Origin: Solirubrobacterales bacterium
GTDB taxonomy: Bacteria; Actinomycetota; Thermoleophilia; Solirubrobacterales; Solirubrobacteraceae
DNA: 42,295 nucleotides
Direction: 5' to 3'
NCBI GenBank assembly: GCA_027315255.1
Contig: DAHUYL010000017.1
Coordinates: forward strand, 1-42,295
In this document: positions 11,321 through 15,731 of the stretch, in pieces
Numbering within the stretch: the first letter of the stretch is position 1
How the letters are laid out: the number at the start of each line of letters is the position of its first letter
The notes under the pieces: model-generated
What the model saw: only the letters and a program-made list of their open reading frames with translations
Told to the model about the DNA's origin: nothing
Database searches by the model: none
Translations under genes and position numbers: made by a program

Positions 11321-12502
11321 ATGAGTCCCTCCGGAGCCGAAGTCCTCCGCCAGATCAAGAGCCGGATCGAGCAGGTCGATCCGGGCGAGGCGCGCGCCCA
11401 GGCTGCCCTCGGGGCGGTCATGGTCGACGTGCGCGAGGCCGAGGAGTGGGCCGCCGGCCACATCCCCGGCGCGTTCCACGTCCCCAAGAGCCACCTCGAG
11501 TCGCGGATCGAGGGCGTGGCTCCCGACCGCTCGGTGCCGGTCGTCCTGTACTGCGCATCGGGCAACCGCTCGGCGTGGGCCGCGCGAACGCTGATCGAGG
11601 ATCTCGGGTACGCCCAGGTGTCATCGATGACGGGCGGGTTCACGCTGTGGAAGGACCGTGGCTACGAGGTCGAGGTCCCGCGCGCGATGTCCGCGGAGCA
11701 GCGTGAGCGCTACTCGCGTCACCTGCTGCTCCCGGAGGTCGGGATCGAGGGCCAGCAGAAGCTGCTCGACGCGCGCGTGCTGCTGCTCGGGGCGGGCGGG
11801 CTCGGGTCGCCCGCGGCGCTGTACCTCGCTGCGGCCGGGGTCGGCACGCTCGGGATCGTCGACGACGACGTCGTCGACGTCTCGAACCTCCAGCGTCAGG
11901 TGATCCACACGACCGATCGGGTCGGGGTGGCCAAGGTCGACTCCGCCGAGGAGGCGATTCGCGGGCTCAACCCCGACGTGACGGTCGAGAAGCACAAGCT
12001 GCGGCTCGGCCCGGAGAACATCATGGACGTACTGCCGGGGTACGACGTGGTCGTCGACGGACTCGACAACTTCCCCACGCGCTACCTCCTGAACGACGCC
12101 TCGGTGCGGCTGCGGATCCCGGTCGTGTCCGCCGCGATCCTCGGCTTCGACGGGCAGCTGTCGGTGTTCAAGCCCTACGCGGGCCCCTGCTACCGGTGCC
12201 TGTTCCGCACGCCGCCCCCTGCCGAGCTGGCTCCGTCGTGTGGCGCCAACGGCGTGCTCGGCGTGCTGCCCGGGACGATGGGGCTGCTGCAGGCGACCGA
12301 GGTCGTGAAGCTGATCCTCGACGTCGGCAACCCGCTGATCGGCCGGCTGCTGATGTACGACGCGCTCGCGGCCACGCTCACCGAGGTGAAGGTCAGGCGC
12401 GATCCCGACTGCCCGATCTGCTCACGCGACCCGGATGAGATCGGCGACGAGGAGCTGGGCGTCTTCCCCGACTACGAGGCGTTCTGCGCCGGCGCGCACT
12501 GA
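11321..12502 (+). CDS. Rhodanese-MoeB/MoeZ fusion: sulfur carrier adenylyltransferase and sulfurtransferase
   Basis: Activates the C-terminal Gly-Gly of a small sulfur carrier with ATP and loads sulfur on it. Residues 25-120 are a rhodanese domain with active-site loop CASGNRS (Cys78). Residues 125-393 are an E1-like ThiF/MoeB domain: nucleotide loop GAGGLGSP (158-165), QRQVIH, DGLDN, and zinc cysteine pairs C290/C293 and C364/C367. Mycobacterial MoeZ has the rhodanese at the C-terminus, so the domain order is reversed. The start has a strong AAGGAG. The carrier gene (cysO) follows after 47 nt and cysM after that, so CysO is the likely partner. It could also serve molybdopterin or tRNA thiolation. 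Confidence 0.9.
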   Translation: MSPSGAEVLRQIKSRIEQVDPGEARAQAALGAVMVDVREAEEWAAGHIPGAFHVPKSHLESRIEGVAPDRSVPVVLYCASGNRSAWAARTLIEDLGYAQVSSMTGGFTLWKDRGYEVEVPRAMSAEQRERYSRHLLLPEVGIEGQQKLLDARVLLLGAGGLGSPAALYLAAAGVGTLGIVDDDVVDVSNLQRQVIHTTDRVGVAKVDSAEEAIRGLNPDVTVEKHKLRLGPENIMDVLPGYDVVVDGLDNFPTRYLLNDASVRLRIPVVSAAILGFDGQLSVFKPYAGPCYRCLFRTPPPAELAPSCGANGVLGVLPGTMGLLQATEVVKLILDVGNPLIGRLLMYDALAATLTEVKVRRDPDCPICSRDPDEIGDEELGVFPDYEAFCAGAH

Positions 12503-12549: not shown

Positions 12550-12822
12550 ATGGCCACCGTTCGAATCCCACCAGTGCTGCGCGCCTCAGTCGGCGGCCAG
12601 AAGGAGCTCGAGGCCGACGGCAGCTCCGTCGGCGAGATCCTGCAGGCCGTCGTCGCCAGCCACCCCGACACGCAGTCGCAGCTGTTCGCTGCAGACGGCG
12701 AGCTGAACCGCTACGTCAACGTCTACCTCAACGACGAGGACGTCCGCGTGCTCGATGGGCTCGACACCGCCGTGTCCGCCTCGGACACGCTCGTGATCCT
12801 GCCGGCGATGGCCGGCGGGTAG
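12550..12822 (+). CDS. cysO: MoaD/ThiS-type sulfur carrier protein, CysO-like
   Basis: A 90-residue beta-grasp protein ending in MAGG. The terminal Gly-Gly is adenylated and turned into a thiocarboxylate that delivers sulfur. The N-terminus (TVRIPPVLRASVGGQKEL), the central YVNVYLNDEDVR and the end VILPAMAGG match the CysO group more than ThiS. It lies between the adenylyltransferase and the CysM-type synthase, with the JAMM protease gene downstream, the full partner set known from Mycobacterium tuberculosis. A short gap of 27 nt separates it from cysM. Confidence 0.9.
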   Translation: MATVRIPPVLRASVGGQKELEADGSSVGEILQAVVASHPDTQSQLFAADGELNRYVNVYLNDEDVRVLDGLDTAVSASDTLVILPAMAGG

Positions 12823-12849: not shown

Positions 12850-13821
12850 ATGGCGGCCGAACGCCTACAGAACAAGCCGTGCGGCGGCCGCTACGGCGAC
12901 ATCGTGCAGGCGATCGGCCACACTCCGCTGGTCGAGTGCAAGCGGCTGTCGCCGAAGCCCGGGGTGCGGATCTGGGCGAAGCTCGAGTCGCGCAACCCGA
13001 CCGGCTCGGTCAAGGACCGGGTCGCCCGGGCGCTGATCGAGGACGCCGAGGAGAAGGGGCTGATCGGTCGGCACCAGACGATCCTCGAGCCGACGTCGGG
13101 CAACACCGGGATCTCGCTCGCGATGATCTGCGGCCGCAAGGGGTACCGGCTGAAGGTCGTGATGCCCGACAACGTCACGCCCGAGCGGACGGAGCTGCTG
13201 CGGATGTACGGCGCCGAGATCGTCTACTCGGAAGGGGCGAAGGGCTCGAACGGCGCGGTCGAGCTTGCGCTCGACATGGCCGAGCGGGACGCCTCCTACT
13301 ACATGCCTTACCAGTACGGCAATCGCGCCAACCCCGACGCCCACTACGGCGGCACCGCGCTCGAGATCCTCGAGGAGCTTGACGAGGTCAGCGCGTTCGT
13401 CGCCGGCCTCGGTACCGGTGGGACGCTGATGGGCAACGGCCGCCGGCTGAAGGAGGAGCTCGGCGACGCGGTCAAGATCGTCGCGGCCGAACCGATGCAG
13501 GGCGAGCCGGTTCAGGGCCTGCGGTCGCTGGCGGACGGCTTCATCCCGCCGAGCATCGACCTGTCGCTGCTGGATCGCAAGATCTTCGTCACCAACGCCG
13601 ACGCGATCGCGTGGACGCGCTAGCTGCTCGACGAGGAGCGGCTGTTCGCCGGCGTCTCCTCCGGCGCGATCGCGCGTGTCGCGGTCCGGATCGCGGGCGA
13701 GCTCGACGAGGGCAATGTCGTGTTCGTCGTCGCCGACGACGGCTGGAAGTACCTGTCGTCCGGGATCTACACGCGTCCGCTCGAAGAGCTCGAGAACCTG
13801 GACTCAACCGTCTGGTGGTAG
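12850..13821 (+). CDS. cysM: CysM-type O-phosphoserine sulfhydrylase (CysO-thiocarboxylate-dependent), interrupted by an in-frame amber codon
   Basis: A PLP enzyme that makes cysteine on the CysO carrier. The PLP lysine is Lys55 in NPTGSVKDR, the phosphate/substrate loop is PTSGNTG (81-87), and GLGTGGTLMG binds PLP phosphate. GLRSLADGF carries Arg225, the position of the O-phosphoserine-specifying Arg of the tuberculosis enzyme (from memory). At 13621-13623, codon 258, a TAG breaks the frame; relatives have TREL where this reads TR-stop-L, so GAG to TAG is the simplest change. The same frame then runs on cleanly for 65 codons with the FAGVSSGA block (PLP ring-nitrogen Ser), DDGWKYLSSG and a tail ending TVWW. 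The whole would be 323 codons, the normal length. The truncated 257-aa product should be inactive. A recent nonsense mutation, sequence error or readthrough are all possible. Confidence 0.85.
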
Positions 13822-14366
13822 AGCAGACGCGTCGGTCCGTGCTCGCCGGCGCAACCGCGGGGCTGGCGGCCGTGGTCCTGGGCGGGTGCGGCGGCGTCGG
13901 CCGGGCGACGCATCGGATCCGGCTCGCGGCCGCGACCGCGGGCGACGGGGTACTGCTCAACCAGGCGCTCGCAGTCGAGCAACGGGCGATCGCGGCCTAC
14001 ACCGCCGCCGGTCCGCTGCTGCCGGGCATCCAGCAGCAGGCGGCCAGGCTGTTCCTCTCCCAGGAGCTGCAGCACGCCGGCGAGCTGCGCAAGCTGGTGA
14101 AGCTGACCGGTGCGAAGGCGCACGATCCCGAGCCTCGCTATGACCTCGGCCAGCCACACGGAGCCGCACAGCTGCTCGAACTGCTGCACGAGGTCGAGCG
14201 CCAGCAGCTCGCCGCGTACCTGACCGTGCTCCCGCGGGTGTCGAGTCCCGAGCTGCGTCGGGCGCTCGCCGCGATCATGGCCAACGACGCTCAGCACGTC
14301 TCGGTGCTGCGAGCGCTGCAGGGGAGCTCGGCGCTCGCCGGCCCGTTCCCGAGCGCGGCGCAATGA
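13815..14366 (+). CDS. Ferritin-like domain lipoprotein with twin-arginine-type signal
   Basis: A 183-residue protein. The N-terminus has TRRSVLAG, a hydrophobic stretch and LGGC (Cys25), so it is probably exported, possibly by Tat, and lipid-anchored. The mature part is a four-helix bundle of the DUF4439/ferritin-like type, with Glu/His helices (AVEQRAIAAY, LSQELQHAGEL, HEVERQQLAAY, ANDAQHVSVL) that could bind a di-metal centre. The GTG start lies inside the last codons of cysM (stop at 13819-13821), implying coupling to cysM translation; the longer frame upstream is a shadow of cysM. It is followed by a second ferritin-like gene with a 4-nt overlap. Confidence 0.7.
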   Translation: MVEQTRRSVLAGATAGLAAVVLGGCGGVGRATHRIRLAAATAGDGVLLNQALAVEQRAIAAYTAAGPLLPGIQQQAARLFLSQELQHAGELRKLVKLTGAKAHDPEPRYDLGQPHGAAQLLELLHEVERQQLAAYLTVLPRVSSPELRRALAAIMANDAQHVSVLRALQGSSALAGPFPSAAQ

Positions 14367-14938
14367 GTGCGCTCGGGACCGGGGCGGGCGGTCAGTCGCC
14401 GGTTCGGCGTCAGATCGCCGCCGGCTTCGCCGCGCCCCCGCCTGGCGCGGGCGACGCCGCTCAGCTGCGGCGGCTGCTCGCATACGAGGAGCTCGCGATC
14501 GCGGTCGGCGGGCTCGCGCTCACCTCCGGGATGCTCCTTCCCGCGACCGCCGAGCTGGTGCGGTCGCTGCAGCGCCAGGAGACCGCGCATGCCCGAGCGC
14601 TGTCCGCCCTGCCAGGCGTGACGCCACCGGCGCCGCTACAGGGCCGCGCGGAGGTCCAGGTGGCGCTGTCGGCGATCGGCATCAAGCTTGCGCTCGAGCC
14701 TCCACTGGACGAGCGGCACTGGATGACGTTGCTCGCCGAGCTCGAGACCAGGCTCGAGGGCGTCTACTACCACGCATTGGGGCTGCTCGGCGAGAGCGGC
14801 CCCGCTTCGCTCGCCGCGTCGATCCTCGCGAGCGAGGCTCAGCACTCGGTCGCGTTGGCGCTATGGCGCTACCCGGGCGATATCGGCCTGACGGTCGGCT
14901 CCGCGCTCGTCCAGGGGGCGCCGCCGCCGCGGGCGTAG
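14363..14938 (+). CDS. Ferritin-like (DUF4439-type) protein, cytosolic partner
   Basis: A 191-residue helical protein without signal sequence, overlapping the previous gene by ATGA. Helices carry LLAYEELAIAVGG, LQRQETAHARAL, LAELETRLEGVYYHAL and ILASEAQHSVALAL, which repeat the Glu...Glu-x-x-His spacing of ferritin-like bundles. It looks like a paralogue of the upstream lipoprotein, probably working with it. Whether the pair binds iron or another ligand cannot be read from the sequence. Its place in the cysteine-synthesis cluster is notable. Confidence 0.65.
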   Translation: MSALGTGAGGQSPVRRQIAAGFAAPPPGAGDAAQLRRLLAYEELAIAVGGLALTSGMLLPATAELVRSLQRQETAHARALSALPGVTPPAPLQGRAEVQVALSAIGIKLALEPPLDERHWMTLLAELETRLEGVYYHALGLLGESGPASLAASILASEAQHSVALALWRYPGDIGLTVGSALVQGAPPPRA

Positions 14939-15045
14939 CCGTCCCAGCTCGGATCACTGCGGAAGCTGGCGGCGGCGACCGCCGCGTGCGCGCTCGCGCG
15001 CGCGAGGATCGCGGTCGCGATCGCCCGTTCGTCGACGACGTACAT
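14869..15045 (-). CDS. Possible small protein (58 aa), uncertain
   Basis: The minus-strand frame starts MYVVDERAIATAILARASAH, which looks like a genuine helix start, and then becomes less protein-like (Gly/Pro/Thr-rich) where it overlaps the end of the ferritin-like gene on the other strand. No clear -10 box at leaderless distance and no ribosome binding site. It may be a small gene with a frameshifted end or a remnant. Confidence 0.25.
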   Translation of the reverse strand: MYVVDERAIATAILARASAHAAVAAASFRSDPSWDGYARGGGAPWTSAEPTVRPISPG

Positions 15046-15338
15046 GTCGCGCGAGATCAGCTGGTGCAAACACACTTGGGCCTGTATCACATTTCGGTGT
15101 ATCGGCGGTCGCGATCAGATGGTTGAAGCCGATTGGACGCCGGTGGCGTGGAAGCGGATGCGTTGGAGCTCTGAAGCACTGCCGAAGGCCCACCGCCAGC
15201 CGCCCGCTCCGTGCAGCCGCGCCGACCTCGCTGACGTCCTTCAGGCTCAGGTCGACACGATCGCTTCACGTGACCCGGTGATCAGCGGCTGCCCACGGAC
15301 CCCGAGCGCCGGGAGCCCCCTGGTAGGGTGGGCACGGG
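14939..15338. other. Intergenic region between the ferritin-like pair and mec
   Basis: About 400 nt. The possible small minus-strand frame at 14869-15045 overlaps its beginning. Positions 15055-15150 are clearly lower in GC than the surroundings and show no gene. The last part holds the mec promoter. I see no RNA gene or mobile element. Confidence 0.5.
15324..15329 (+). promoter_or_regulatory. -10 element TAGGGT for the JAMM protease gene (leaderless)
   Basis: TAGGGT ends 9 nt before the ATG at 15339. Confidence 0.45.
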
Positions 15339-15731
15339 ATGCGGATCGCGCGAGCCCTTCACGACCAGATCGTGGGACAGGCCCAGGCCGAGGCGCCGAA
15401 CGAGTGCTGCGGGATGATCGCCTCGCGCGACGGCGAGGCGGTGTCCGTGCACCCCGCGGTCAACAAAGCTGCCAGCCCCCTGCGCTACGAGATCGACGGG
15501 GCCGAGCAGTACCGGATCCAGATGGAGATCGAGGATGCGGGCCTCGACCTCGGCGCGATCTACCACTCTCACACCCGCACCGCCCCGTACCCGTCCCAGA
15601 CCGACATCAACCTCGCCTTCTACCCCGAGGCGCTGTATGTGATCGTCGGCCTGGCGGGCCACGGACCTGAGGTGAAGGCCTACACGATCCGGGACGGCCG
15701 GGTGGCGGAGGCGGAGCTGGTCGTGGTGTGA
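15339..15731 (+). CDS. mec: JAMM/Mov34 metalloprotease, Mec-like (releases cysteine from CysO)
   Basis: A 130-residue zinc protease. The JAMM signature is complete: Glu22 in NECCGM, then His76-x-His78, seven residues, Ser86, two residues, Asp89. In mycobacteria the orthologue cleaves cysteine from the C-terminus of CysO-cysteine after CysM action. The presence of moeB-rhodanese, cysO and cysM about 2.5-4 kb upstream supports the same role. It has its own leaderless promoter, separate from the broken cysM. Its stop overlaps the next ATG by one base. Confidence 0.9.
   Translation: MRIARALHDQIVGQAQAEAPNECCGMIASRDGEAVSVHPAVNKAASPLRYEIDGAEQYRIQMEIEDAGLDLGAIYHSHTRTAPYPSQTDINLAFYPEALYVIVGLAGHGPEVKAYTIRDGRVAEAELVVV

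Follow-up and report, generated by a model that had tools for sequence, protein, structure and literature searches.

A single in-frame amber codon in the cysM frame of a Solirubrobacterales draft genome

In a 42,295-nucleotide stretch of DNA from a Solirubrobacterales bacterium (hereafter the window; G000:C204:1-42295), a cysM frame that is otherwise intact is interrupted by a TAG codon. This raises the question of whether the gene carries an ordinary nonsense change, present in the organism or introduced with the assembly, or whether the organism reads this amber codon as sense. The genome to which the window belongs amounts to 4.31 Mb in 231 contigs and is 92.2% complete.

The interrupted frame and its neighbours

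Direct reading of the DNA places the TAG at codon 258 of a plus-strand frame (12850-13821), which opens with ATG at 12850, runs through 257 sense codons and, past the amber, has 65 more before it terminates with TAG at 13819-13821 (Table 1). This is the arrangement described in the initial annotation, and the two blocks that it expected in the gene, FAGVSSGA and DDGWKYLSSG, both lie inside the 65-codon tail. The short product does lack the SSG block, as had also been claimed; the serine in this lost part presumably contacts the PLP ring nitrogen.

The piece upstream of the stop carries a PALP domain (PLP fold-type II) and among solved structures matches 3dki best (Cysteine synthase B / O-phosphoserine sulfhydrylase; E 5.8e-74), so that both domain and best match are those of a CysM. 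Among the NCBIfam profiles the best match of this 257-residue piece is the subfamily cysKM, with cysK (237.2 bits) slightly above cysM (228.5 bits); its 276.3 bits fall below the cysKM cut-off of 344.15, which a complete CysM frame would be expected to exceed. The two pieces separately match consecutive portions of the same profiles, 2-247 and 249-299 of cysKM, 2-240 and 244-290 of cysM. A Pfam search with the short tail by itself gave no match. Among seven matches in the genome there is no second copy of cysM, the next best being 42% and 41% identical.

Two other readings of the tail were considered and rejected. A chance open frame is ruled out by the homology of the tail to NCBIfam profiles and solved structures, as the consecutive profile matches and the agreement with related tails (see below) both argue. 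A restart after the stop would find no ATG, GTG or TTG among the first 12 tail codons, which makes a two-piece CysM unlikely.

A CysO-like carrier ending in Gly-Gly, a MoeZ-type activator and a Mec-type protease domain are linked to the frame, as expected for a CysO-dependent CysM, and the PF14464 match of the protease is the sole one in the genome. According to PMC3227635, MoeZR, CysO, CysM and Mec+ belong to the mycobacterial CysO pathway. Judged by this neighbourhood, the interrupted frame appears to code for the synthase in a cysteine pathway of the CysO type.

Two ferritin-like genes lie between cysM and the JAB protease (window 13611-15686). Contigs of same-genus relatives, for example G010:C70, show DNA matches arranged likewise, which suggests that this order recurs.

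Table 1. Features of the cysM locus (window positions) and further in-frame amber codons in the same genome
Feature	Position	Strand	Evidence
MoeZ-like protein, rhodanese and ThiF	11321..12502	+	Pfam ThiF 1.2e-79, Rhodanese 8.3e-20
CysO-like sulfur carrier, Gly-Gly end	12550..12822	+	ThiS 7.2e-13 on 12553-12819; sequence
cysM frame 5' of stop, 257 codons	12850..13620	+	Pfam PALP 4.1e-61, residues 20-256
Amber codon 258 of cysM	13621..13623	+	Direct reading; sense in the 108 related loci covering the column
cysM tail, 65 codons and terminal TAG	13624..13821	+	Aligns to 3dwi (Cysteine synthase B) residues 256-322
Ferritin-like gene; listed ORF overlaps cysM	13611..14366	+	Ferritin_2 5.6e-14, ORF residues 112-238
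Second ferritin-like gene	14363..14938	+	Ferritin_2 4.9e-07
JAB (Mec-like) protease domain	15354..15686	+	PF14464 4.3e-21
ilvA-like PLP enzyme, in-frame TAG near start, otherwise intact	L155:11949 (G000:C80:11949)		
LIV-type periplasmic binding protein, in-frame TAG	L213:7227 (G000:C39:7227)		
Regulator that looks like an HTH protein, in-frame TAG, 110 bases from contig end	L157:110 (G000:C99:110)	minus	

Codon 258 and the cysM tail in relatives

We compared the codon 258 column across 109 related cysM loci (L008-L116), of which the named ones are mostly from Solirubrobacterales, Solirubrobacteraceae, Conexibacter and Thermoleophilaceae. The loci are not all independent, some apparently being one genome present in two collections. 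L113 ends short of the column, which leaves 108 loci that cover it, none of them with a stop there. The codons are AAG (60), CGG (14), AGG (11), CGC (11), AAA (4) and CGA (4), that is, Lys in 64 and Arg in 40 loci, with one CAC (His), one CAG (Gln) and two Glu besides. The initial annotation had put Glu here in relatives, from which a single base change would give TAG; for this clade that is wrong, since 104 of the 109 loci have Lys or Arg, and the two loci with Glu, L114 and L115, are distant outgroups with the titles Chloroflexi and Dehalococcoidia.

Across the order, a strong cysM match was found in 213 of 232 genomes, and among the 150 of these 213 matches that were listed, the only one with a stop inside is the window's own. 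A strong match was not seen in the remaining 19 genomes, while among the 112 genomes of good quality it is missing in only 3. In the 18 same-genus loci whose tail aligns in full (L008-L018, L020-L022 and L024-L027), 54 to 61 of the 65 tail residues are the same as in the window; the tail of L023 is incomplete, with 31 of 36 residues the same. In a comparison with nine close relatives, private amino-acid changes of the interrupted frame number 4 in 257 body codons and 1 in 65 tail codons, and each of the nine, treated in the same way, has 0 to 6 in the body and 0 to 2 in the tail; body and tail thus show no visible difference in a comparison of little power. The stop is a single event in a frame that is otherwise intact, with a tail as conserved as the body. 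Such an undecayed tail would be equally compatible with an erroneous base, with read-through and with a null allele of very recent date.

Amber codons in the rest of the genome

If TAG were reassigned in this genome, it should be rare or absent as a terminator. In 1.33 Mb of the window's genome, 177 of the 714 ORFs that reach 200 aa terminate with TAG (25%). The corresponding counts are 47 of 186 in G010 and 28 of 140 in G013, both of the same genus, 205 of 455 in named loci and 51 of 152 in relatives' small loci. The cysM frame itself also terminates with TAG. RF1 is retained (prfA, 431.8 bits, cut-off 423.25), and the single PylS match in the genome, at 20.2 bits, lies below the cut-off of 178.15. 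The tRNA profile RF00005 gave 42 matches, and on the loci of these matches ARAGORN found no CTA anticodon. This search, which the initial annotation had proposed for a suppressor tRNA, is limited by gaps among ordinary tRNAs: no tRNA for Ile was found, at most one each for Ala and Thr, and there are other gaps too, so that presumably about eight expected tRNAs are absent from those found. The absence of a suppressor is thus not proof, because ordinary tRNAs are also missing from a genome that is about 92% complete. A literature search on UAG reassignment in Actinobacteria, with sources available in part, gave nothing applicable. All together, the recoding tests on TAG use, RF1 and PylS came out negative for the read-through alternative of the initial annotation, and the tRNA search gave it no support, within that same incomplete coverage.

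In the 1.33 Mb surveyed for in-frame stops (31% of the genome), additional in-frame TAGs came to light in three unrelated genes (Table 1). The ilvA-like gene has a PALP domain and a weak ACT match below the cut-off; at the column of its stop, 20 relatives of at least 50% identity have GAG (10), CAG (3), CAC (3), CGC (2), GTC (1) and CAT (1), CGC being the codon of the closest one. In the LIV-type gene the column is AAG or AAA (Lys) in four of four aligned relatives, and the piece 3' of the stop scores 19.9 bits in Pfam, below the cut-off of 31.7. The piece before the stop of the putative regulator matched no Pfam family.

Two scans were made for such stops. The homology scan was run with a stricter filter that kept 2196 of 2341 queries, the unfiltered version being swamped by wrong-frame ORFs. 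It returned 10 stops in the genome's own DNA, of which 3 were counted real; the other 7 were discarded by eye, since they lay either in a wrong frame or 5' of a start codon. The query set carried a bias, as sequences related to the ilvA-like and LIV genes had been added once the stops in those genes were known. In the controls it returned 2 stops in G010, 10 in G013 and 17 in the named loci, none clear by eye; two control stops on L317 lie opposite a better-scoring open frame on the plus strand. The de novo codon-model scan gave 29 candidates in the 1.33 Mb, three of them judged real (cysM, LIV and HTH), and 27 in 1.31 Mb of controls (4, 8 and 15), with none or one judged real. Most of the other candidates resemble, by eye, junctions of two neighbouring genes. 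The de novo scan misses some stops, as the ilvA-like case came instead from the search of the genome for cysM copies. The control genome G013 has, at L308:10969 on the minus strand, a TAG with coding-like sequence on either side that could be another lone in-frame stop.

The resulting count, 3 or 4 in-frame stops per 1.33 Mb as compared to 0 or 1 per 1.31 Mb of controls, is not significant (one-sided p 0.06-0.32). All four stops judged real are TAG, and 70% of the single stop-making changes available from the genome's codon usage yield TAG, which gives this outcome a chance of 0.24 under random change. The chance would be 0.03 if all four had arisen from NAG, and for the three alignable genes (cysM, ilvA-like and LIV) relatives often have a NAG codon at the column. 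GC precedes the TAG in three of the four cases (window 13621, L155:11949 and L213:7227) compared to 25 of 177 terminal TAGs, a weak pattern noticed after the fact. Two of the in-frame sites share GCTAGACG, possibly by chance.

Lone stops also occur in relatives' matches (TAG in G013, TGA in G016, TAA in G044, TAG in G003), and a cysteine-synthase-like match of G027 has a TGA inside; such stops are therefore not peculiar to the window's genome. The literature search on stops in draft genomes gave nothing applicable. In conclusion, the three extra in-frame TAGs are as expected from a random background of one-base changes, and the all-TAG, NAG-column, GC-context and count patterns, all of them noticed after the fact, are weak arguments against an ordinary change.

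Origin of the cysM stop

All together, these data make it highly probable that the cysM stop in the assembly is a nonsense change of the ordinary kind, affecting a single base. Since TAG serves as a normal stop in this genome, the encoded product would be a protein of 257 residues that lacks the C-terminal portion of the PLP domain; no full-length CysM is likely to be made.

Such a change may have entered with the assembly or may be carried by the organism. We give roughly even chances to a consensus error, or an allele of a minority strain, in an assembly that is a draft and probably of metagenomic origin; cysM would then normally be whole in the organism. This reading is favoured by the 231 contigs, by the absence of decay in the cysM tail and by the lone in-frame TAGs that interrupt several genes without other damage, the ilvA-like one among them, in one case (L157) at 110 bases from where the contig ends; the cysM stop, however, sits 13.6 kb inside a 42-kb stretch, away from the contig end, and the origin of the genome from a metagenome bin is itself our inference. 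A genuine recent loss of cysM, to which we assign a somewhat less than even chance, would be tolerated by virtue of other cysteine genes. The alternative route that the initial annotation had envisaged does have its genes: contig C108 carries a cysE match (211.2 bits, just above the NCBIfam cut-off of 210.65) with a cysK-like gene adjoining it, and contig C99 encodes a CBS-domain PALP enzyme, so that CysM loss need not cause cysteine auxotrophy. In the case of a real null, the CysE/CysK route would supply the cysteine. Genomes of the order in which cysM was not seen speak for loss as well, although few of them are of good quality, while its retention in most of the order speaks against it; and the clean tail, with its one private change, means that a genuine loss must be very young. 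Between the two, we think that an error or minority allele is slightly likelier than a genuine recent null.

Read-through of the amber by a suppressor tRNA or near-cognate decoding, giving some full-length CysM, is very improbable. It would account for the intact tail, the three additional in-frame TAGs and the GC context, and a suppressor could have been missed just as ordinary tRNAs were; against it stand the normal terminator use of TAG, the presence of RF1 and the lack of both a CTA anticodon among the tRNAs found and a PylS match above cut-off. More improbable still is its broader form, in which a Solirubrobacterales lineage would read some ambers, perhaps those after GC, as sense, either because termination is inefficient or through a tRNA for UAG that escaped detection. 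CysM, the IlvA-like enzyme and the LIV-binding protein would then arise in part by read-through, with TAG remaining the terminator of a quarter of the genes. If true, read-through would mean that a free-living bacterium with a normal RF1 suppresses amber codons according to their context. As an ordinary nonsense change, the stop has little import beyond the reminder that draft genomes carry lone stops, and it leaves a genome with CysE/CysK genes besides a broken CysO/CysM set.

With respect to known systems, no difference of the stop from ordinary nonsense alleles or draft-genome assembly errors is demonstrable: as in these, one codon is affected, the frame is intact on both sides and the homologues are unbroken in the close relatives seen. 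The gene itself is like the CysM of the CysO pathway, the best solved relative of both pieces (3dki, 3dwg and 3dwi, which we take to be M. tuberculosis CysM, the O-phosphoserine sulfhydrylase of that pathway), and its 323 codons compare with solved chains of 323-326 residues. Its MoeZ-like, CysO-like and JAB neighbours correspond to pathway parts named in PMC3227635. It differs from that system in that the frame is interrupted by an amber codon after 257 residues, and in that the neighbourhood additionally holds two ferritin-like genes.
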